Source: Niabella sp.
Lineage (GTDB): Bacteria; Bacteroidota; Bacteroidia; Chitinophagales; Chitinophagaceae
Direction: 5' to 3'
Assembly: GCA_017744795.1 (NCBI GenBank)
Contig: JAGIAQ010000033.1
Span: 1-38,444 of the forward strand
DNA: 38,444 nucleotides
Shown: piece by piece, positions 29,592 to 38,444 of the stretch
Position numbering within the stretch: position 1 is the stretch's first letter
How the letters are laid out: every line of letters starts with the position of its first letter
Translations under genes and position numbers: made by a program
Notes under the pieces: generated by a model
What the model saw: the letters and a program-made list of their open reading frames with translations, nothing else
Database searches by the model: none
Told to the model about the DNA's origin: nothing

Positions 29592-30935
29592 TTATTCTGC
29601 ATTCAGCAGTTTGCCATATGCCGTATGCACGGCCTCAAAATCAAAAGAAGCAATGGTTTTATCCATCAGGTCTTTTATTTCCTTCGTGCATAAATTCTGG
29701 ATGCTGCCTTCATGTGGATTTTTGATTTCTGTATGTTCAGGTATTTTATAACTGCCGTCCTCAACTGATTTACCCACCTGAATATAAGCATCCCGGAAGG
29801 GAACGCCCTGTAATACCAACTGATTCACCAGGTCTACCGTAAACAGGTATTTGTATTTTTCATCTTTTAAAAGATCGGCTTTTACTTCGATGTTGGACAA
29901 CATCAAGCCAGCCATTTCAATACAATTCTTCAGCACTTTAAATGCAGGGAACAGGTGTTCCTTCAATAACTGCAGATCGCGGTGATAACCGGAGGGCAGG
30001 TTGGTGGTCATCAAAGTAATTTCGTTGGGCAATGCCTTTATACGGTTACAATACGAACGGATCAGTTCAAAAACATCGGGGTTTTTTTTATGCGGCATAA
30101 TGCTGCTGCCCGTAGTAAGTTCCGGCGGGAAGCTGATGAAACTGAAATTCTGATTCAGGTACAAGGTAGCATCCATACTCATCCTGGACAAGGTGTCTGC
30201 AATATTGGCCAATGCCTGTGCCACCACCCGTTCTGCCTTGCCCCGGCCCATTTGTGCATATACTACATTATAGTTTAATGTAGAAAAACCAAGCAATTGG
30301 GTTGTAAGCGTACGGTTAATGGGGAAGGAAGAACCGTAGCCTGCCGCAGATCCCAACGGGTTCTTATTGATAATGTCGTAGGCTGCTTTCAGGCTGATTA
30401 GGTCGTCCACCAGGCTTTCGGCATAAGCGCCAAACCAAAGACCAAAGGAGGAAGGCATGGCCAGTTGCAGATGTGTATACCCTGGAAACAAGAATGCTTT
30501 ATATTTTTCGCTTTGCGTTTGCAGCAGCTCAAAAAACGGGAGAATCGCTTTTACGGTTTGTTCAATTTCGCTGCGTAAAAATAATTTCAGGTCCACCAGC
30601 ACCTGGTCGTTGCGACTGCGGGCGCTGTGTATCTTTTTACCGGCTTCGCCGATCCGTTGCGTAAGCAATACTTCTACCTGGGAGTGGATATCCTCCACAT
30701 CATCCTGTAATTGAAAATCGCCTTTTTTAATATCGGCATAAATAGAACGCAATGCTTTTTGCAATTCGGTAAGTTCGTCCTTTTTCAGTAAACCCACCGA
30801 TTCCAGCATTTGAATATGTGCAAGTGACCCCAGCACATCAAAAGGCGCCAGGTACTCATCCATTTCGCGATCCTTACCTACTGTAAAGGATTCTACTTCT
30901 TTTAACGAATCCGTATTTTTTTTCCAGAGTTTCAT
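29592..30935 (-). CDS. argH: Argininosuccinate lyase
   Basis: Last step of arginine synthesis: argininosuccinate to arginine and fumarate, cytoplasmic, homotetramer with active sites shared between subunits. At 447 residues it is normal length. Superfamily signature GSSIMPHKKNP at 276-286, SARSRND at 104-110 and YTHLQ at 153-157 (catalytic His) are all intact. It is the last gene of the arg cluster. The whole 104-base gap to the upstream gene is a heptanucleotide array that begins right at this ATG, so no ordinary ribosome-binding site can be seen there. Confidence 0.97.
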   Translation of the reverse strand: MKLWKKNTDSLKEVESFTVGKDREMDEYLAPFDVLGSLAHIQMLESVGLLKKDELTELQKALRSIYADIKKGDFQLQDDVEDIHSQVEVLLTQRIGEAGKKIHSARSRNDQVLVDLKLFLRSEIEQTVKAILPFFELLQTQSEKYKAFLFPGYTHLQLAMPSSFGLWFGAYAESLVDDLISLKAAYDIINKNPLGSAAGYGSSFPINRTLTTQLLGFSTLNYNVVYAQMGRGKAERVVAQALANIADTLSRMSMDATLYLNQNFSFISFPPELTTGSSIMPHKKNPDVFELIRSYCNRIKALPNEITLMTTNLPSGYHRDLQLLKEHLFPAFKVLKNCIEMAGLMLSNIEVKADLLKDEKYKYLFTVDLVNQLVLQGVPFRDAYIQVGKSVEDGSYKIPEHTEIKNPHEGSIQNLCTKEIKDLMDKTIASFDFEAVHTAYGKLLNAE

Positions 30936-31040
30936 GATTCTGTTTCAGGTTTCAGGTTTCAGGTTTCAGGTTGCAGGTTGCAAGTTCCAAGGTTCAGGTT
31001 GCAGGTTACATTCATCCGCTTGTAACCTGTAACCTGCAAC
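30936..31040. repeat. Heptanucleotide array A, fills the whole argE'-argH gap
   Basis: Fifteen consecutive 7-bp units (105 bp) run from the base after the argH ATG to the argE' stop. Units include TTTCAGG (four in a row), TTGCAGG, TTGCAAG, TTCCAAG and GTTCAGG. The last three on this side read TTGTAAC, CTGTAAC, CTGCAAC, the reverse-complement sense. GTTGCAGGTTACA (30998-31010) pairs perfectly with 31028-31040. The transcript would have a stable hairpin between the two coding regions. Confidence 0.92.
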
Positions 31041-32104
31041 TAGATTACTACTCTTCCCACAATCTCAATATAATCCTTAATGCCACCCTCAATTTCATTC
31101 AGATAAATAAATTCATCCGCGGTATGACTACGGGCAGAGTCACCAGGCCCCATTTTTAACCCGGGGAAGGGCATCAGGGCCTTGTCGGAGGTTGTTGGGG
31201 AACCATACGTGGTTTTTCCCATCTCGATACCCGCCTTTACGATAGGATGCTCCAAAGAAATTGAGGTAGAACGCAGGCGGGTAGAGCGTGGCTTTACCTC
31301 GCTGGAAACATTCTTATGGATGGCATCCAGGATGTCTTCAAAACTGTATAATTCATTTACACGCACGTCCACTACGTATTTACACGAAGAAGGTACTACG
31401 TTGTGTTGCTTGTTCTCCGTTTCAATAACCGTGCAGGTCATGCGGCTGTCACCCAGCAGGGGAGATACCTTTTCAAATTTATAAGAATGAAACCACTCAA
31501 TATCTTTAATGGCTTTTACAATAGCATTTTCTCCCTCATTGCGCGCAGCATGGCCCGCTTTACCGTGTGCGGTGCAGTCCAACACCATCAGCCCCCGTTC
31601 TGCTACCGCCATCTGGAGCTTTGTCGGCTCTCCCACAATAGCAAAGTCGATCGGCGGCAAAATATTTACAGCAGCCTCAATGCCATTGTAGCCGGAGATC
31701 TCTTCTTCGGCACTGGCCACCAGCATGATATTGTATTTTAAATTTTCCTTTTCGTAGTAGTAAACAAAAGTAGCGATCAGCGACACCAGGCAGCCGCCGG
31801 CATCGTTACTGCCCAGCCCGTATAGTTTGCCGTCTTTTTCAATCGCTTTGAACGGATCTAATGTGTATTTGGGGTTGGGTTTTACCGTATCGTGGTGCGA
31901 GTTCAGCAACAGCGTGGGTTTGGCAGCATCGAAGTACTTATTTTTTGCGATGATATTATTGCCCAACCGCTTGATGGGAACCTGGTGCTGCGCCAGATAT
32001 GCGATGATGAGTTCCGCGGTATTATCTTCCTCCTTGCTGAAGCTGGGTGTTTCGATCAGTTGTTTTAAAAGCGCTATCGCTTCCCGGTAAAGTTGTTCCT
32101 GCAT
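31040..32104 (-). CDS. M20-family deacylase, probable N-acyl-citrulline or -ornithine deacetylase
   Basis: Removes the N-acyl group in the arginine pathway (ArgE-like). The 354-residue protein has zinc-ligand motifs: SHHDTV (H70, D72), GSNDAGG (D101), ASAEEEISG and a C-terminal GDSARSHTADEFIYLNE. Because the cluster carries an acetyl/succinyl-ornithine type carbamoyltransferase, the likely substrate is N-acyl-citrulline, as known from Xanthomonas and inferred in Bacteroides. The alternative, acetylornithine, cannot be excluded. It lies 16 bases after argB, clearly co-transcribed, and its stop codon is joined to a heptanucleotide array. Confidence 0.88.
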   Translation of the reverse strand: MQEQLYREAIALLKQLIETPSFSKEEDNTAELIIAYLAQHQVPIKRLGNNIIAKNKYFDAAKPTLLLNSHHDTVKPNPKYTLDPFKAIEKDGKLYGLGSNDAGGCLVSLIATFVYYYEKENLKYNIMLVASAEEEISGYNGIEAAVNILPPIDFAIVGEPTKLQMAVAERGLMVLDCTAHGKAGHAARNEGENAIVKAIKDIEWFHSYKFEKVSPLLGDSRMTCTVIETENKQHNVVPSSCKYVVDVRVNELYSFEDILDAIHKNVSSEVKPRSTRLRSTSISLEHPIVKAGIEMGKTTYGSPTTSDKALMPFPGLKMGPGDSARSHTADEFIYLNEIEGGIKDYIEIVGRVVI

Positions 32105-32120
32105 AAAATAAAATTGCTGA

Positions 32121-32918
32121 TTAATAAATCAAAGTGCCTTCGTTATTGTCTGTTGTATTTTTTATAAGATCCCTCGCATCACCAATCAATACCTGGTGCA
32201 CACCCGCATTGATCGCGTTGAACGCATTGTCGATCTTTGGCAAAATGCCTTCAAATAATTTTTGTTCCTGTTTTAATTGCGTATACAATTCTTTATTCAG
32301 CCTGCGGATCACGGTATCGTCATTATTGACATCTTCCAGTACGCCCTTCTTTTCAAAACAATAGATCAGGCGCACTTTATAATGGGCGGATAACGCTACC
32401 GCCAATGAGGACGCAATGGTGTCGGCGTTCGTGTTGAGTATATGTCCGTGTGTGTCGTGCGTTAATGGTGCAAATACCGGCGCGATATTGTGTTCGATAA
32501 ACGAAAGCAAACTTTGAACATTAAACTTTGAACTTTCAACATCGCCTACCCAGCCATAGTCGATGGTTTTCACCGGGCGTTTTTGAGCGGGGATAATATT
32601 GGCGTCTGCTCCGGTAAGACCAATGGCATTAGTGCCCAGGGCCTGTAATTGGGCAACGATCTTCTTGTTCACCAATCCGCCGTATACCATGGTAACCAGG
32701 TCGATGGTTTCATCGTCTGTGATCCTTCTGCCGTCTATGTAGTTGGATTGAATCCCGAGCTTTTCGCCGATCTTGGTTGCGATCTTTCCACCGCCATGTA
32801 TGAGTATTTTGGCTCCCTTTATGGCCGAAAAATCTTTTAAAAAGGCGTCCAGGGCGGAAGGGTTATCGATGATATTTCCGCCGATCTTTATGATAAAGAG
32901 TTGTTGTAAATCTTCCAT
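32121..32918 (-). CDS. argB: Acetylglutamate kinase
   Basis: Second arginine-pathway step: phosphorylates N-acetylglutamate. The 265-residue protein has amino acid kinase motifs: start IIKIGGNII, HGGGKIATKI (~41-50), GLTGADANII (~100-109), LTHDTHGHILNTNADTIASSLAVAL and the C-terminal INAGVHQVLIGD. A 35-base tract of five heptanucleotide units lies in the coding sequence (residues ~126-137, ESSKFNVQSLL). Compared with what I recall of Bacteroides ArgB (DVERVDAKLLSLLL), this seems to add about three residues in a loop. It lies 16 bases after the carbamoyltransferase gene. Confidence 0.96.
   Translation of the reverse strand: MEDLQQLFIIKIGGNIIDNPSALDAFLKDFSAIKGAKILIHGGGKIATKIGEKLGIQSNYIDGRRITDDETIDLVTMVYGGLVNKKIVAQLQALGTNAIGLTGADANIIPAQKRPVKTIDYGWVGDVESSKFNVQSLLSFIEHNIAPVFAPLTHDTHGHILNTNADTIASSLAVALSAHYKVRLIYCFEKKGVLEDVNNDDTVIRRLNKELYTQLKQEQKLFEGILPKIDNAFNAINAGVHQVLIGDARDLIKNTTDNNEGTLIY
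32510..32544. repeat. Heptanucleotide array B, inside argB
   Basis: Five units: AACTTTG, AACATTA, AACTTTG, AACTTTC, AACATCG. It keeps the argB frame open and encodes residues ~126-137. Confidence 0.75.
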
Positions 32919-32934
32919 TGTGTAGCGTACCGGG

Positions 32935-33918
32935 TTAAATTTTTTGCAACATCTCGCTCAATACGGCCTGTGCTGCCCAAACGCGGTTACCTGCCTCTTG
33001 GGTGACAATGCTGTTCGGACTGTCTAATACTTCATCGCTTAATTCTACATTTCTGCGTACGGGCAGGCAGTGCATCACGCTCGCATTGTTGGTAAGCGCC
33101 AGTTTGTCCAGCGTTAACATCCAGGAGGGATCATTATTGTAGATCTTGGCATAATCCGTATAAGTGCTCCAGTTCTTCACATATACATAATCTGCATCCT
33201 TCAGCGCCTCATCCTGGTTATGCAAAATCGTAGCGTTTCCAGTAAATTTCGGATCCAGCTCATAATCTTCGGGGTGGGTGATCACGAAATCCACTTCGCC
33301 CCAGGCGTTCATCCATTGTGAAAAGCTATTGGCCACGCATTGCGGCAACGGCTTTACATGCGGCGCCCAGGTAAGAACGACTTTGGGTTTCCTGTTCCTG
33401 GTTTCTGGTTTCTGGTTTAACGTTTCACGTATGGTGATAACATCTGTTAATGATTGCAGGGGGTGCAGGGTCGCGCTTTCCAAGCTCAGTACCGGTATGC
33501 CGGCATATTTAATGAACTGGTTGATATACAATTCGCTGTAATCATCTTCCTTATTGGCCAAAGAGGGAAACGTACGGATGGCCAGGATATCAAAATATTT
33601 GCCCATGATCGGCGCCGCATCTTTTACGTGCTCAGAAGTAGTGCCGCTCATGATGGCTTCATCTTCAAACTCTAATTGCCATCCCTCGGAGCCTACATTA
33701 AATACGATGGACTCCATACCCAGGTTCTGCGCCGCAATCTGGGTGCTTAAGCGGGTGCGCATGCTGGGGTTTAAAAACAAACACCCGATCCTTTTGCCCG
33801 TGCCGAGGGTTTTATCGCGGAACGGGTTGGCTTTGTATTCCAGGGCCTTGGCCACTAATGCGTTGATGTCGGTAACATCATTCGCGCTGATGAAATTGCT
33901 TGTTTTTAAAAGAGACAT
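32935..33918 (-). CDS. N-acetyl- or N-succinyl-ornithine carbamoyltransferase
   Basis: Transfers carbamoyl from carbamoyl phosphate to N-acyl-ornithine. The 327-residue protein has the phosphate site SMRTRLS (52-58), GSEGWQLEFED (~77-87), HVKPLPQ and the C-terminal MHCLPVRR. The GW-LEFED and SEHVKDAAP segments mark the acyl-ornithine type and not ordinary ArgF. Whether acetyl or succinyl is used depends on one proline/glutamate position (Shi and colleagues' work on Xanthomonas and Bacteroides enzymes) that I cannot align with confidence here. A heptanucleotide tract encodes residues ~164-177, an apparent insertion before VVLTWAPH. It is 16 bases upstream of argB. Confidence 0.9.
   Translation of the reverse strand: MSLLKTSNFISANDVTDINALVAKALEYKANPFRDKTLGTGKRIGCLFLNPSMRTRLSTQIAAQNLGMESIVFNVGSEGWQLEFEDEAIMSGTTSEHVKDAAPIMGKYFDILAIRTFPSLANKEDDYSELYINQFIKYAGIPVLSLESATLHPLQSLTDVITIRETLNQKPETRNRKPKVVLTWAPHVKPLPQCVANSFSQWMNAWGEVDFVITHPEDYELDPKFTGNATILHNQDEALKDADYVYVKNWSTYTDYAKIYNNDPSWMLTLDKLALTNNASVMHCLPVRRNVELSDEVLDSPNSIVTQEAGNRVWAAQAVLSEMLQKI
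33388..33429. repeat. Heptanucleotide array C, inside the carbamoyltransferase gene
   Basis: Six units: TTTCCTG, TTCCTGG, TTTCTGG, TTTCTGG, TTTAACG, TTTCACG. On the coding strand it specifies residues ~164-177 (RETLNQKPETRNRK), a polar, lysine- and arginine-rich stretch where relatives are shorter. Confidence 0.8.
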
Positions 33919-33998
33919 TTTACTGTTTCGGTGCTTGTTTTGTGTTTGTAAATTTTTCTAGCAGACCGCCGGCTCTGGTCTGTAGCCAATAGCTTCAA

Positions 33999-34019
33999 AC
34001 CGTGACGAACCGTCACGGT
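33999..34019. repeat. Hairpin between argD and the carbamoyltransferase gene
   Basis: Perfect 9-bp stem ACCGTGACG-AAC-CGTCACGGT. No T-run follows in either direction. A second, shorter hairpin (CAGACC...GGTCTG, 33962-33983) is next to it. These are possible mRNA-processing or attenuator structures or an operator. Confidence 0.6.
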
Positions 34020-34040
34020 ATTATTTCCTACGGCCTTCAC

Positions 34041-35189
34041 TTATGCTGTTGCATGCAGCGCCGCTATTTCTTCCTTCAGCGCTTCAATAAATTCTTCTGC
34101 ATCCTTTTTCTTCAATGCTAAGGAAGGAAGCAGCCGGATCACATTGGGTTTGGCTTCGCCCGTAAAGATCTTGTGATTGGCCAGCAGGTTCTTTTTCAGT
34201 GGGCCCAGGGCCTCCGGAACATCAAAACCGATCATCAGGCCACGACCCCGTACATTCTTTAACTCTGGAATAGCGGATAGTTCTTCCCGCAAATATTTTC
34301 CTACCATTACAGCGTTACCCATCAGTTTTTCTTCGCGGATCACTTCCAGTACGGCTAAGGCCGCGGCACAAGCCAGATGGTTGCCGCCAAATGTAGTACC
34401 CAGCTGAAAATGTTTAGGCTTGATATGCGGCGCAATGATGATTCCTGCCACAGGGAAACCATTTCCCATGCCTTTTGCCATCGTGTAGATATCGGCATTT
34501 ACGCCCGCAAAGTCATGACTAAAAAATTTCCCGCTGCGTCCGTAGCCACACTGCACGCTATCCGCGATATATACAGCGCCGTATTTGTCGCATAGCGCGC
34601 GTATCGTTTTTAAGAAAGATTCGCTGGCTACATTGATACCGCCTACGCCCTGGATGCCTTCTACAATTACCGAGGACACTTCTTTGCCGTGCTGCTCAAA
34701 ATAAGCGGCAAGGGCGTCTTCATCATTGAAAGGAAGAAAAACAACATTGTCGGTTTCATTAACCGGCGCTACAATATTTTTATTATCGGTTGCGGCTACT
34801 GCCAGCGATGTTCTGCCATGAAAGGACTTGCTGAAGGCCACAATTTTTTTACGGCCATTAAAAAAAGAAGCCAGCTTTAAAGCATTCTCATTTGCCTCTG
34901 CCCCTGAGTTGCAAAGGAATAACTGGTAATCTTCCTTGCCAGATACTTCACCCAGCTTTTTGGCTAATTCCTGCTGCAAGGGAATTTTTATAGAGTTGGA
35001 ATAGAAAGCAATTTTTTCCAGTTGCTCTTCAATACGTTTTACCCAGTGGGGGTGGGTATGTCCGATACTGATAACGGCGTGGCCGCCATAGAGATCCAGG
35101 TACTGGTTGCCCTGGTCGTCCCAAACGTACGATCCTTTTGCTTTTACAATGGTAACGTCGTTAAGTGGGTAAACATCAAATAAATTCAT
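34041..35189 (-). CDS. argD: Acetylornithine aminotransferase
   Basis: PLP enzyme that makes N-acetylornithine (or its succinyl analogue) from the semialdehyde and glutamate. At 382 residues it is normal length. Conserved elements: CNSGAEANENALKLA (phosphate binding, ~93-107), FHGRTSLA, ADSVQCGYGRSG (Asp binding pyridine nitrogen) and the Schiff-base lysine in MAKGMGNG (K239), then GTTFGGNHLA. It starts the arg cluster here; argC, argG and argJ/A are not in the window, so the pathway is split. Upstream on the strand is a heptanucleotide array and a rhodanese gene. Confidence 0.93.
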   Translation of the reverse strand: MNLFDVYPLNDVTIVKAKGSYVWDDQGNQYLDLYGGHAVISIGHTHPHWVKRIEEQLEKIAFYSNSIKIPLQQELAKKLGEVSGKEDYQLFLCNSGAEANENALKLASFFNGRKKIVAFSKSFHGRTSLAVAATDNKNIVAPVNETDNVVFLPFNDEDALAAYFEQHGKEVSSVIVEGIQGVGGINVASESFLKTIRALCDKYGAVYIADSVQCGYGRSGKFFSHDFAGVNADIYTMAKGMGNGFPVAGIIIAPHIKPKHFQLGTTFGGNHLACAAALAVLEVIREEKLMGNAVMVGKYLREELSAIPELKNVRGRGLMIGFDVPEALGPLKKNLLANHKIFTGEAKPNVIRLLPSLALKKKDAEEFIEALKEEIAALHATA

Positions 35190-35278
35190 CAGTAATTTTT
35201 TTACAAAACTTTCACTTCCGGGTTAAAAAAAAGATGCCTGTAACCAGGCAATCAAGGGCATAAAAATAAGCTAAAAAG

Positions 35279-35362
35279 TTCATAGTTCATAGCGTATGGT
35301 TCATAGCTTATAGATCATAGTTCATAGCCAGACCATGAACTATGATCCATGAGCTATTGACT
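35279..35362. repeat. Heptanucleotide array D, between rhodanese and argD
   Basis: Twelve 7-bp units: TTCATAG occurs four times, with CGTATGG, CTTATAG and ATCATAG between; the spacer CCAGACC is also 7 bp; then ATGAACT, ATGATCC, ATGAGCT, ATTGACT in the opposite sense. The array runs into the rhodanese stop codon (35361-35363). Confidence 0.9.
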
Positions 35363-36005
35363 AATTAAGCATTCCCGGCTCTTTTACGATCTGGGCCTTG
35401 GGCTCTTCCTTAATTTTTTTCCATCCGCCGGCTACATTGCGCAGGTTATGGACGCCCTGTCGTTTTAGTACAGAGGCTGCGATCACACTTCGGGTGCCGC
35501 CGCCGCAATGCAGGTACAGGTTGTCGTGGTCCTCTATTGCCGCAATACGCAGCGGATCATTTAGATCGTTCAGCGGCAGATTCACCGCGTCTTTCAGATG
35601 GCCTTCCGCAAATTCTATAGGTTTGCGCACATCCATTACTACCAGATGTTCGTCGAAAGGAATATCCATCATCAGTTCATCGGGCTCCACATCAATGATC
35701 AGGTCAACCGGCGCACCGGAATCTTTATAAGTATCAAATCCTCCGGCCAGCCAGCCGGCAACGGTAAATCCGGATGTCGTAAGCAGTTCTATGGCAGCGG
35801 TTTCTGCTCCCGGGTCGCTCACTATTAGAATGGGTTCTGTATTGTCCAGTACCGCGGTGCTCCATTCGGCAAATTGTTTGGCTTTTAATGGAATATGAAT
35901 ACTTCCGGGAATAAAGCCTTCTTTAAATAAGGTTGTATCACGCACATCTGCAATAACTGCATTTTCCGAGGCACGCAGAAAAGCGCTCAGATCAAGACCA
36001 TTCAT
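35361..36005 (-). CDS. Tandem rhodanese-domain protein
   Basis: Two rhodanese domains in 214 residues. Domain 1 (~1-95) lacks the active-site cysteine (IVSDPGAETAAIEL in its place), so it is probably structural. Domain 2 (~105-195) has active-site Cys in LHCGGGTRSVIAASVLKRQG. It resembles the C-terminal half of the larger MBL-fold/rhodanese fusions (persulfide dioxygenase-sulfurtransferase type) but lacks the metallo-beta-lactamase part, and no remnant is upstream. A persulfide sulfurtransferase role is likely. A TACCTTTG box lies 19 bases upstream, and an ArsR gene is the neighbour. Confidence 0.88.
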   Translation of the reverse strand: MNGLDLSAFLRASENAVIADVRDTTLFKEGFIPGSIHIPLKAKQFAEWSTAVLDNTEPILIVSDPGAETAAIELLTTSGFTVAGWLAGGFDTYKDSGAPVDLIIDVEPDELMMDIPFDEHLVVMDVRKPIEFAEGHLKDAVNLPLNDLNDPLRIAAIEDHDNLYLHCGGGTRSVIAASVLKRQGVHNLRNVAGGWKKIKEEPKAQIVKEPGMLN

Positions 36006-36024
36006 AATTTATTCGATTTTGGAA

Positions 36025-36032
36025 CAAAGGTA
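36025..36032 (-). promoter_or_regulatory. -7 box (TACCTTTG) of the rhodanese gene
   Basis: TAnnTTTG match on the minus strand with a 19-nt leader to the ATG at 36005. Confidence 0.6.
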
Positions 36033-36082
36033 AGCGTAAAGCAAGCACTACCGAAACCGGTGAATGGGGGCTTAAAGCGGGA

Positions 36083-36421
36083 TCAGGCAAGTAACTCCGA
36101 AACAAACTGGTTGAGCTCAGTCATGCGGCCGGTGTTCACGGTATAGTAAATAAATTTTCCGTCGCGCTCTGTATTTACAAACTCTGCTTTTCGCAAAATA
36201 GCAAGATGCTGTGAAGCCACAGATTGCTCAATACGCAATTTTACATAGATTTCAGTAACAGTAATCTTATCATGCGTGTCGATCAGCTTCAAGATCTGTT
36301 GTCTTAGTTTGTGATTAAAGGCCCGAAGGATCAGAGAGGCTTTTTTCACGTTGAGGGTATCAACCGTAATTGGGCTGTTTTCCTCTTTTTTTTGGGCAAA
36401 GGAAATCTGATAATTACTCAT
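36083..36421 (-). CDS. ArsR-family transcriptional regulator without cysteines
   Basis: A 112-residue winged helix protein from the ATG at 36421; an alternative upstream start at 36457 lies in the promoter box and is rejected. The ArsR HTH is visible in LRQQILKLIDTHDKITVTEIYVKLRIEQSVASQHLAILRKAEFVNTERDGKFIYYTVN. It contains no cysteine, so metal or persulfide sensing through Cys thiols, as in ArsR, CzrA-like alpha3 sites or BigR, is ruled out. The ligand is unknown. It sits 77 bases upstream of the rhodanese gene on the same strand. Confidence 0.87.
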   Translation of the reverse strand: MSNYQISFAQKKEENSPITVDTLNVKKASLILRAFNHKLRQQILKLIDTHDKITVTEIYVKLRIEQSVASQHLAILRKAEFVNTERDGKFIYYTVNTGRMTELNQFVSELLA

Positions 36422-36454
36422 CGTACGAATTGAATAGATTTTTTGAATAGCATA

Positions 36455-36462
36455 CAAAGTTA
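36455..36462 (-). promoter_or_regulatory. -7 box (TAACTTTG) of the ArsR gene
   Basis: TAnnTTTG match, 33 nt before the ATG at 36421. It overlaps a possible TTG start at 36457, which is therefore rejected. Confidence 0.62.
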
Positions 36463-36523
36463 TACATCCGTTTAAATTTTTTGCAAATAATTGCCGTTAA
36501 AATCGTATATTATTTTCTTTAAT

Positions 36524-37186
36524 CTAAATTTTGTTAAAATATACAGGTTTTATATAAAAGGGCTCAATGTAGGAAAGATCGTCGAAAGCTTGTTGATGAT
36601 AGCGATTAAACGATAAAGCAGGCATTGCGGCAGCGTCATAAACTGCGTTGTTAAAGATTGCGTTAGAGTGCTTTATAACCTGTTTTAGTTTGGTAACCGC
36701 ATTTCCGGTAAAGAGGATCTTACGTGCATCTAGTTCTGCAGCAAAACTATTCTCGTCTACAATCATAGCCTGCGGCGGCATTATAATTGTTAAATCTTTG
36801 TCATATATGGCGGTATAAATTTCCATCCTCCGGGCATCAATAACAGGGCAAATGAGGTCCGGGGCATCCTTTTTGACCATTTGTGCCATTATAGTCAGTG
36901 TATTTAAACAAATGAGGGGTTTATCCAGCGCAAAACACAGGCCTTTGGCCGTCGAAAGTCCAATCCGCAGGCCGGTATAGGAGCCGGGACCATTGCTCAC
37001 GGCGATGGCATCCAGGTCGGTCAGGGAGTGGTCGGCTGAGGCAATAACTGCTTTAATGGCGTCGTTGATCCAGGTAGCGTGGGTGTTGGGCACCTCATTT
37101 TTTGCCGTTGCAAGAACTGTTGCGTTTTTTGCAACACATAAGGATGCTCCATCAACGGCAGTATCGATATTTAAGATCAGGGCCAT
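36524..37186 (-). CDS. tsaB: tRNA t6A biosynthesis protein TsaB
   Basis: Inactive sugar-kinase-fold partner of TsaD in t6A synthesis. The 220-residue protein from the ATG at 37186 starts MALILNIDTAVDGASLCVA and has the family core DAIAVSNGPGSYTGLRIGLSTAKGL. The C-terminal half is divergent, as is usual for TsaB. The start is fixed by a TACTTTTG box ending four bases before it; a longer reading (37234) would be intergenic. Its partner tsaE is also in the window; tsaD and tsaC are not. Divergent from ridA, with a gap of 76 bases between starts. Confidence 0.93.
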   Translation of the reverse strand: MALILNIDTAVDGASLCVAKNATVLATAKNEVPNTHATWINDAIKAVIASADHSLTDLDAIAVSNGPGSYTGLRIGLSTAKGLCFALDKPLICLNTLTIMAQMVKKDAPDLICPVIDARRMEIYTAIYDKDLTIIMPPQAMIVDENSFAAELDARKILFTGNAVTKLKQVIKHSNAIFNNAVYDAAAMPALSFNRYHQQAFDDLSYIEPFYIKPVYFNKI

Positions 37187-37190
37187 AGCG

Positions 37191-37198
37191 CAAAAGTA
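37191..37198 (-). promoter_or_regulatory. -7 box (TACTTTTG) of tsaB, near-leaderless
   Basis: TAnnTTTG match ending four bases before the tsaB ATG at 37186, the same spacing as upstream of tsaE. Confidence 0.68.
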
Positions 37199-37262
37199 AT
37201 GCAATCCGCATTTGGTACATACGTTCCGATCCAACTATATTCGTAGCCTAAAATATCCGCAA

Positions 37263-37643
37263 ATGGAAAAAAGAATCATTCAAACCCCAAACGCACCTGC
37301 TCCCATTGGTCCCTATAACCAGGCGGTTTTTGCCGGGGATACCTTATATATATCGGGCCAGATCGCCATTGATCCGGCCTCCGGGGAGTTAAATAATAAG
37401 AGTCTTGAAGAAGAAACCCATCAATGTATGCGGAACCTGAAAGCGATCCTGGAAACAGCCGGACTAAGCTTTGGCAATGTGATCAAATCCACCATATTTA
37501 TTACAGATATGAATCAGTTCGGAGTAATCAATGGCGTTTATGGTCAATATTTTACGGGTGATTTCCCGGCCCGCGAAACCGTGCAGGTGGCAGCCTTGCC
37601 CAAGTTTGTAAATGTGGAAATCAGCATGATTGCCGTACGGTGA
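37263..37643 (+). CDS. ridA: RidA-family enamine/imine deaminase
   Basis: Trimeric enzyme that hydrolyses reactive 2-aminoacrylate made by PLP enzymes to pyruvate and ammonia. The 126-residue protein, from the ATG at 37263, has the typical start (PNAPAPIGPYNQAV), LYISGQIAIDP, and ARETVQVAALPK with R104, equivalent to Arg105 of Salmonella RidA. Upstream starts would overlap tsaB promoter sequence. Its stop codon (37641-37643) is the beginning of heptanucleotide array E. Confidence 0.95.
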   Translation: MEKRIIQTPNAPAPIGPYNQAVFAGDTLYISGQIAIDPASGELNNKSLEEETHQCMRNLKAILETAGLSFGNVIKSTIFITDMNQFGVINGVYGQYFTGDFPARETVQVAALPKFVNVEISMIAVR

Positions 37644-37787
37644 GTAGTGATCAGTTAGTAGTTATCAGTTAGTAGTTATCAGTATTCAGTAGTCAGTATT
37701 CAGAACCGATCACTGAATACTAAAAACTAAGTGCTGATAACTAATGACTTACAACTGATGACTTAAAACTGACGGCTGATTGCTGCC
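37641..37787. repeat. Heptanucleotide array E, downstream of ridA
   Basis: Twenty-one 7-bp units (147 bp) begin with the ridA stop as TGAGTAG. Forward units: TGATCAG, TTAGTAG, TTATCAG, TTAGTAG, TTATCAG, TATTCAG, TAGTCAG, TATTCAG. After AACCGAT the units invert: CACTGAA, TACTAAA, AACTAAG, TGCTGAT, AACTAAT, GACTTAC, AACTGAT and more. The halves are largely complementary and would form a long, imperfect hairpin between ridA and the next gene's promoter. Confidence 0.93.
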
Positions 37788-37794
37788 GGCGTTG

Positions 37795-37802
37795 TACCTT
37801 TG
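37795..37802 (+). promoter_or_regulatory. -7 box (TACCTTTG) of the oxidoreductase gene
   Basis: TAnnTTTG match eight bases after the last heptad, 19 nt before the ATG at 37822. Confidence 0.6.
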
Positions 37803-37821
37803 CATCCCAATAATTTTAGAT

Positions 37822-38444
37822 ATGGTTCGAAATCAGGAGGTGCTACAGGAAGTAGTCATCAAATTTGCAGGAGACAGTGGCGATGGGATGCAGTTAACAG
37901 GATCGCAATTCACCAATAATACAGCTTTATTAGGCAATGACCTTTCTACATTCCCCGATTTTCCGGCGGAAATACGTGCCCCGCAGGGCACGTTGCCGGG
38001 GGTGAGTGGCTTTCAGCTGCGTTTTTCATCGGATAGCATTTATACGCCCGGCGATAATTATGATGTGCTGGTGGCTATGAACGCAGCCGCGCTTAAAGCC
38101 AACCTGGGCCGGTTGAAGAAAGGCGGTAAGATCATCGTTAACACGGATGGCTTTGACGCCAAGAACCTGCGCCTGGCAAATTATCCTGATGGAGAGAACC
38201 CGATAGCTGATGATAGTCTCCAGAATTACGAGGTCATAAAGATGGATGTTACCAAAATGACCCGTGAGGCGCTGAAGGAATTTACCATGGGCACCAAAGA
38301 AAAGGACCGCGCAAAGAACATGTTTGTGCTCGGCTTTTTGTATTGGCTGTACGACCGCGATATGGAAAGTACGGTCGATTTTCTTACCGAAAAATTTGGA
38401 AAACGGGCCGATATCCTGGACAGCAACCTGAAAGTGCTGAAAGC
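37822..38444 (+). CDS. 2-oxoacid:ferredoxin oxidoreductase alpha subunit, 3'-truncated
   Basis: The first 207 codons of a normally ~600-residue protein run off the window end without a stop. The start MVRNQEVLQEVVIKFAGDSGDGMQLTG, then LSTFPDFPAEIRAPQGTLPGVSGFQLRFSS and DVLVAMNAAALKANLGRLKKGGKIIVNTD, are typical of the gamma-domain portion of fused alpha subunits of 2-oxoglutarate/2-oxoacid:ferredoxin oxidoreductases (KorA type), which make an acyl-CoA and reduced ferredoxin with a TPP-binding beta subunit. The beta subunit would be expected just beyond the window. The 2-oxoglutarate specificity is assumed from family, not shown. Confidence 0.92.
   Translation, partial: MVRNQEVLQEVVIKFAGDSGDGMQLTGSQFTNNTALLGNDLSTFPDFPAEIRAPQGTLPGVSGFQLRFSSDSIYTPGDNYDVLVAMNAAALKANLGRLKKGGKIIVNTDGFDAKNLRLANYPDGENPIADDSLQNYEVIKMDVTKMTREALKEFTMGTKEKDRAKNMFVLGFLYWLYDRDMESTVDFLTEKFGKRADILDSNLKVLK

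Follow-up and report, generated by a model that had tools for sequence, protein, structure and literature searches.

Intergenic heptanucleotide palindromes in a Niabella arg region as probable gene-less copies of S23p elements

Five arrays of tandem seven-nucleotide units (heptamers) occur within 7 kb of a Niabella sp. contig of 38,444 nt (JAGIAQ010000033.1, assembly GCA_017744795.1), referred to as the window. The window is one contig of a 4.57-Mb genome (G000), and the closed genome of a sister species is denoted G008. Three of the arrays (1, 4 and 5) lie between genes in and around an arg gene cluster and are concluded to be gene-less S23p elements, akin to the intervening sequences (IVS) of 23S rRNA but located between protein genes. 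A complete element consists of a heptamer array, a gene for the four-helix-bundle protein S23p (PF05635) and an inverted copy of that array. Its arrays are built of (A/G)G-phased units of 7 nt, sometimes 8 nt, and it sits between neighbouring genes, often directly after a stop codon. The S23p genes of complete elements match both PF05635 and TIGR02436; the window copies contain no S23p. That intergenic heptamer palindromes are gene-less copies of such elements is considered probable.

S23p genes often lie between matching inverted arms. PF05635 matches number 14 in G000, 12 in the sister and 5–20 across ten related genomes (fragments and a few matches below the cut-off included), and none occur in 14 control genomes. 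At each locus, 220–250 bp of upstream flank were aligned to the reverse-complemented downstream flank, a score of at least 30 counting as a match; the loci are partly orthologous and hence not all independent. Matching arms were found at 42 of 70 S23p loci in the ten related genomes, versus 12 of 400 mispaired flanks and 2 of 150 control genes of 270–700 bp. Arrays stood on both sides of 23 of these 70 loci, versus 8 of 273 control genes. Loci from other Bacteroidota gave 13/30 (28/600 mispaired). In a cross-phylum set, the best 80 of at least 590 matches in a genome collection, 44 of the 76 loci with long enough flanks had matching arms (17/1000 mispaired). This set covers nine or more phyla, and its loci scoring at least 30 include Planctomycetota, Bacillota, Acidobacteriota, Pseudomonadota, Myxococcota, Kiritimatiellota, Bacteroidota and two candidate phyla. 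Among 14 of 29 plasmid records, picked from the cyanobacterial ones, seven loci matched (9/182 mispaired), with arms such as GGGAGTA and GGGAACA, and viral contigs gave 14/23 (14/506 mispaired). In the 70-locus and 30-locus sets, upstream and downstream are merely labels for minus-strand loci, which leaves arm scores unaffected; for orientation-dependent analyses, 99 of 100 loci were turned to gene direction (L184 has no frame).

The arms share a common grammar. Among 97 arms (score at least 30, or at least 29 for eight cyanobacterial arms), the best self-period was 7 in 80, 8 in 15 and another value in 2. The phase on the upstream side of S23p was AG/GG in 83, CT/CC in 7 and tied in 7, and T was the commonest base after the phased pair (208/376). 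Arm length ranges from about 2 units to more than 30. In 52 of 63 (non-independent) pairs, the two arms of one element fit each other better than they fit the arms of elements with the same word. The word, in turn, follows the protein: over 51 loci, the mean cosine between arm words was 0.11–0.14 below 45% S23p identity, 0.20 at 45–60%, 0.51 at 60–80% (21 pairs) and 0.79 above (5 pairs). Related S23p proteins carry related words; several words therefore occur in a genome that harbours several subfamilies, and each window array has its own word because the word follows the S23p subfamily.

All five heptamer tracts of the original prediction are present near the positions it gave, and the three intergenic ones have inverted halves and start at a stop codon, as it had described. 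The 7-bp register is not unbroken, as array 1 includes one 8-nt and one 6-nt unit; the words are indeed distinct from array to array, but they are degenerate (GTTNCAG, GTYNATR and so on). Array 1 has the top period-7 score of the window (27/28) and arrays 2–5 score 19–23, moderately over shuffled sequence (at most 18 in 30 shuffles). Word matches to S23p arms were judged against two nulls: random window stretches (95% point 0.29, too easy) and reversed arrays (95% point 0.53, maximum 0.81). The word of array 1 matches the arms of L225 in its own genome (cosine 0.87) and of L237 (0.81); array 2 matches L182 (0.61); array 4 matches L192 (0.69) and, in its own genome, L214 (0.65); array 5 matches L174 (0.70) and, in its own genome, L173 (0.64). 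Four of the five window arrays match arms of specific S23p subfamilies, three of them with subfamily members in G000. For 75 of 107 intergenic arrays in the sample, at least one S23p arm of the set gave a cosine above 0.4; when the arrays were read backwards, the count was 28.

Arrays of this kind are abundant. The period-7 autocorrelation scan that had been proposed as a check was run on 834 kb of G000 and G008 (G000 stretches chosen partly for pattern hits, and the first 400 kb of G008, not so chosen), and such tracts proved far commoner than in shuffled sequence: 58 arrays scored at least 20/28, versus 0 in one shuffle. Period 8 gave 11 versus 0, multiples of 7 were likewise in excess, and among longer periods 18 gave 8 arrays and 15 and 16 gave 4 each. 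The period-8 words resemble the octamer arms of S23p loci L228, L229, L232 and L233. Periods 2–6 and 9–13 gave 0–2 arrays per genome, and general slippage was rejected on this absence of excess. Assembly error was also rejected: of 31 G000 arrays, 7 were located in the stretches of the closed sister used for comparison, and all seven have a similar tract there by eye. Rough extrapolation from this sample, partly chosen for pattern hits, suggests a few hundred arrays per genome. The pattern (GTTN4)x4-GTT occurs 65 times in G000 versus 1 for the reversed pattern, and 77 times in G008 versus 0. Across 296 Bacteroidota genomes, the number of GTT-pattern arrays correlates with the number of S23p genes (rho 0.59, uncorrected for kinship; at most 15 scored S23p candidates per genome), and GTT arrays are present in 44 of 49 genomes with at least ten S23p.

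Placement was counted in 1.23 Mb with a simple home-made gene caller, which left 15.7% outside genes. Of 125 arrays, 107 were intergenic (some overlapping a gene end), 15 lay within genes and 3 were at stretch edges. The anticipated enrichment just after stop codons was observed: 45 of 107 distances to a stop were at most 6 nt (overlaps included), versus 22.6 expected from random placement in the same gaps. No enrichment was seen at starts (15 of 107 versus 19.5). Inverted arms scoring at least 10 were present in 25 of the 107 intergenic arrays versus 0 of the 15 coding ones. Of the 17 strongest gene-less palindromes, 14 have an AG/GG-phased and 3 a CT/CC-phased left arm; these three form one word family (GATNCT) and face the same way by eye. 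At the looser cut-off of 10, the counts were 19 AG, 5 CT and 1 tie.

Comparison with the sister shows gene-bearing and bare sites at the same gaps, the bare arms being read as what loss of the gene leaves behind. At the L225 site, G000 has arm, S23p and arm, and the sister (L082) lacks S23p but keeps bits of both arms, in which the word is of the same kind. At the L237 site, it is the sister that has S23p, carrying an in-frame stop, and G000 (L402) retains the downstream arm. The related S23p genes L225 and L237 occupy different places in the two sisters and have the same word. At the L214 site, G000 carries an S23p element and the sister a palindrome with another word; neither was seen in six other relatives, and no target duplication was recognised there by eye. 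Together, these differences indicate that the same gaps gain and lose elements. Two further observations concern these sites. The gap that holds the S23p element in the sister contains a Y1 transposase gene in G000 (L402:3141-3584, G000:C122). Other species (L387, L388, L390, L391) have another short palindrome family, like GACCTGTGAGGTTT...AAACCTCACAGGTC, after the same stop at the L214 site.

The arg region was also compared among sixteen relatives. Arrays with changing words recur between argE and argH, between the rhodanese gene and argD, and between ridA and the oxidoreductase gene. In L060, L064 and L069, a small gene lies between inverted repeats at the argE–argH site (arm scores 36, 25 and 26), and it is S23p (PF05635, '23S_rRNA_IVP'; matches in G016, G010 and G001). 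The window and the sister have the palindrome only, with a GTTNCAG-type word as in L064; the gene is absent from the window and from L059. By eye, the S23p of L064 (= L196) falls into one subfamily with the proteins of L225 and L237, and the arms of these two have the GTTNCAG-type word. Inverted GTTCATA-like tracts were recognised by eye at the array 4 site not only in the window but also in seven relatives (L059–L065). Many genes of L073 (G002) and L074 (G003) appear broken up into shifted frames, probably from sequencing errors in both assemblies.

Cyanobacterial heptamer repeats, the short tandemly repeated repetitive (STRR) sequences, had been named in the original prediction as a related class, and a shared layout had been claimed; both points were borne out, as the arrays here consist of tandem 7-nt units and are mainly intergenic. 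Heptamer arrays are known from cyanobacteria, Beggiatoaceae, Xanthomonas and a few Bacteroidota (PMC4679880, PMC4692102). The repeats of cyanobacteria and Beggiatoaceae and the GGGAATC-type repeats of Xanthomonas and Nostoc resemble the present arrays in being of period 7 and mostly intergenic. Array length differs between strains in 7-nt steps (PMC4679880), and convergent heptamer pairs were counted in Xanthomonas (70 and 75 cases, PMC4692102). Although the original prediction knew of no described Bacteroidota equivalent, TAACTGA and others are on record in five Bacteroidetes (PMC4679880); TCAGTTA, its reverse complement, occurs in array 5.

A 23S rRNA IVS with an S23p open reading frame (ORF) is known from Leptospira and Coxiella and shares with the present elements terminal inverted repeats forming a stem and an S23p gene inside (PMC4990558). 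In Coxiella, RNase III cuts the IVS, and heptameric repeats (GACAGAT, i.e. AGATGAC in another phase) immediately precede the S23p start codon; the same source terms such IVS selfish and gives the S23p family 'no known function' (PMC4990558). Complementary, stem-forming termini are present in the elements described here, and an internal S23p/IVP ORF is found in the complete ones but not in the window copies. In contrast to the IVS, the present elements lie between protein genes rather than in 23S rRNA helices (S23p loci are mostly between long ORFs), are many per genome and have heptamer-array arms with subfamily-linked words. Most of the arrays are gene-less, and excision by RNase III would here be by analogy. 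No mention of S23p was found in the available parts of PMC4679880 or PMC4692102, whereas the arrays here are tied to S23p elements, and no demonstrated protein partner for heptamer repeats is named in the available parts of those papers or of PMC4990558. In the open literature, nothing was found that joins heptamer repeats in general to S23p elements; the Coxiella report concerns one IVS. Each half was known already; no account joining heptamer arrays and S23p as an element class between protein genes was found in the literature searched.

Structural data suggest how such an element might operate. The palindromes of the window fold strongly as RNA (z -4.2 for array 1, -6.9 for array 4 and -7.0 for array 5), which makes the previously suggested RNA structure likely; two G008 copies gave z -5.4 and -1.6. 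An S23p homologue of known structure (2gsc, E 5.5e-16) and a weak match (2rld, E 0.007) have five chains each, and S23p is called a 'homopentamer' in PMC4990558. The element would be transcribed with its operon, and the array arms would pair into a stem in the transcript. RNase III may cut this stem as it does in the 23S rRNA IVS (PMC4990558), leaving both neighbours intact, so that the insertion would harm neither. The S23p ring might read the AG-phased units in the element that encodes it, and might be required for that element's spread or upkeep, and gene-less copies would be served in trans or be derelict. More tentatively, a single class of parasitic mRNA intervening elements, present throughout bacteria, may have produced most of their heptamer repeats. 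Its S23p pentamer would read AG-phased heptamers, each subfamily with its own word (a protein–repeat code), and gene-less arrays would be its non-autonomous satellites. Heptamers with S23p were seen in Bacteroidota, Cyanobacteriota, Planctomycetota, Acidobacteriota, Bacillota, Pseudomonadota and others. The reading of heptamer arrays as ends of S23p elements would tie together two unexplained features, the over-represented heptamer repeats of bacteria and the enigmatic S23p family. If it is right, each S23p brings its own candidate binding sequence, making binding and function testable together, and many intergenic arrays become readable as traces of one element class.

Several results weigh against the S23p interpretation. 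The arm threshold is missed by 28/70, 17/30, 32/76 and 7/14 S23p loci of the respective sets, and 26 of the 70 loci have no array on either side. Most arrays are gene-less and few are traced to a gene-bearing relative; GTT arrays also occur in 9 of 64 genomes without S23p. Over all pairs, the link between word and subfamily is weak (Mantel rho 0.19; 0.10 below 45% identity), resting on pairs above about 45–60% S23p identity, and it could reflect linkage without recognition. As the reversed-array null reaches 0.81, only array 1 surpasses every null value, and array 3 has no partner S23p (best arm cosine 0.22, below both nulls). The variation in arm length leaves a fixed 5 x 7 match to the ring unsupported. 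Orientation is likewise not decisive: of 99 Bacteroidota loci, S23p points the same way as both neighbours at 62 and opposite to both at 7 (the rest mixed or undecided), and at 42 and 1 of 80 named loci (the best 80 of at least 590), but ordinary short genes give 99 and 11 of 171, so orientation shows operon-like placement and not RNA function. Co-transcription of the S23p element with its neighbours is probable; this agrees with an RNA-level life without proving it.

Among the alternatives, a DNA-level mobile element is possible but rather unlikely. The arms would then be terminal inverted repeats to which S23p binds in DNA, a host or trans-acting enzyme would move the element, gene-less copies would resemble miniature inverted-repeat transposable elements (MITE), and RNA pairing would be incidental. 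In its favour are the multiple S23p copies per genome, the different elements at the L214 site in sister species, the differently placed, same-word L225 and L237 genes, and the Y1 transposases present in 10/10 genomes examined. However, the elements read contain no transposase and no target duplication was recognised (looked for by eye only). Repetitive extragenic palindromes with their associated transposases (REP/RAYT) and MITE are short, dispersed intergenic palindromes without a transposase of their own. The present arrays share the short, dispersed, intergenic palindromic form and differ in their tandem-heptamer arms. The partner with the same ends is S23p here and not a transposase, as it would be for a MITE, and no duplication was recognised by eye at the L214 site. 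At three Y1 genes examined, no heptamer arms were seen (scores 19, 28 and 33; by eye, the repeat scoring 33 is not heptameric). A reverse transcriptase copying the element with an Avd-like S23p is very improbable. Its one hint is that the S23p of L173 weakly matches NF033474, the model of Avd, an accessory protein of diversity-generating retroelements that forms a pentameric four-helix bundle. This distant relation concerns L173 only, at 22.8 bits against a cut-off of 80. The reverse transcriptase domain PF00078 has no match in 5 of ten genomes searched, the closed sister G008 with its 12 S23p matches included; G000 has none either, and a reverse transcriptase acting in trans was rejected on this ground.

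Two further accounts are both improbable. Replication slippage of 7-nt units plus templated inversion with no protein involved, one of two mechanisms suggested in the original prediction and disfavoured here as a full account, is consistent with the dominance of period 7, with array lengths and units that differ between sisters, with the local in-frame expansion in argF and with a polymerase-footprint idea cited in PMC4692102. Yet it predicts neither arm polarity nor matching arms across the S23p gene, and neither the word–subfamily link nor the correlation of array and S23p counts; slippage may still set unit copy number. About equally improbable are RNA hairpins or translation signals under host selection (terminators, RNase barriers, leader control), along the lines of MacGregor's proposal for TAACTGA in Beggiatoaceae. 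They would suit the strong folds of four of the five palindromes tested (z -4.2 to -7.0; the fifth -1.6), the placement after stops and the persistence by eye of inverted GTTCATA-like tracts at the array 4 site. Nevertheless, close species differ at one site in the word and in whether an array is there at all, and neither S23p nor the word families are explained. Gene-less S23p elements thus remain the favoured interpretation of arrays 1, 4 and 5.

For arrays 2 and 3, which lie inside genes, the case as S23p elements is weaker. The argB tract (array 2) lies in a variable stretch of unchanged length, with no insertion relative to orthologues, and period-7 tracts with other words occur near the same argB position in L061, L069 and L071. 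The argF tract (array 3) is a 5-residue in-frame insertion in G000 and the sister (15 sequences compared); one other sequence, from another genus (G023), has a different insertion at the same place. Coding arrays are of the AAC (R) type on the sense strand in 11 of 15. Inserted elements were rejected for both genes, as argB has no insertion and argF a small local expansion, and coding arrays are taken as tolerated local expansions.

Table 1. Heptamer arrays and neighbouring genes in the window
Feature	Position	Strand	Basis or context
Array 1, gene-less inverted heptamer element, GTTNCAG word	30936..31042	no strand	spans argE stop to argH start
Array 2, direct heptamer tract within argB, GTTCAAA word	32510..32544	-	period-7 signal, orthologue comparison
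Array 3, direct heptamer tract within argF, GTTTCTG word	33382..33430	-	period-7 signal, orthologue comparison
Array 4, gene-less inverted heptamer element, GTTCATA word	35276..35363	no strand	adjoins rhodanese-like gene stop; upstream of argD
Array 5, gene-less inverted heptamer element, TTATCAG/TCAGTTA word	37641..37787	no strand	begins at ridA stop codon; 2-oxoacid oxidoreductase gene next
argH, argininosuccinate lyase	29592..30935	-	TIGR00838, above cut-off
ArgE/DapE-family deacylase (argE in the text)	31040..32104	-	TIGR01910, below its cut-off
argB, acetylglutamate kinase family	32121..32918	-	TIGR00761, above cut-off
argF-like N-acyl-ornithine carbamoyltransferase	32935..33918	-	NF003384, 3 bits below cut-off
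argD-like aminotransferase	34041..35189	-	TIGR00707, below its cut-off
Rhodanese-domain protein	35361..36005	-	PF00581
Rid-family protein (ridA)	37263..37643	+	TIGR00004, above cut-off

Two more weak period-7 tracts are present in the window, at 1700-1737 and at 29593-29629; the latter lies at the argH 3' end, where the sister has additional sequence beside the tract. No Rfam family matches at gathering score in window positions 30001-38444. On the minus strand at 35225-35253, a hairpin and T run just before the argD start form a possible attenuator, and hairpins of this kind, likewise with T runs, were seen by eye both in relatives that have the array and in relatives that lack it.

Another dispersed repeat, about 130 bp long, has the inverted ends CCACATAG...CTATGTGG; it resembles a MITE or non-coding RNA and occurs at L102:14265-14430 in G000 and at about a dozen similar places in G008; by eye it is unrelated to the heptamers. 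On the cyanobacterial plasmids of L373, L375 and L382, S23p lies within CRISPR-cas rows, between cas6 and cas4 or between cas10 and a Cmr3-family gene, and S23p in cas loci was noted earlier (PMC3936711).

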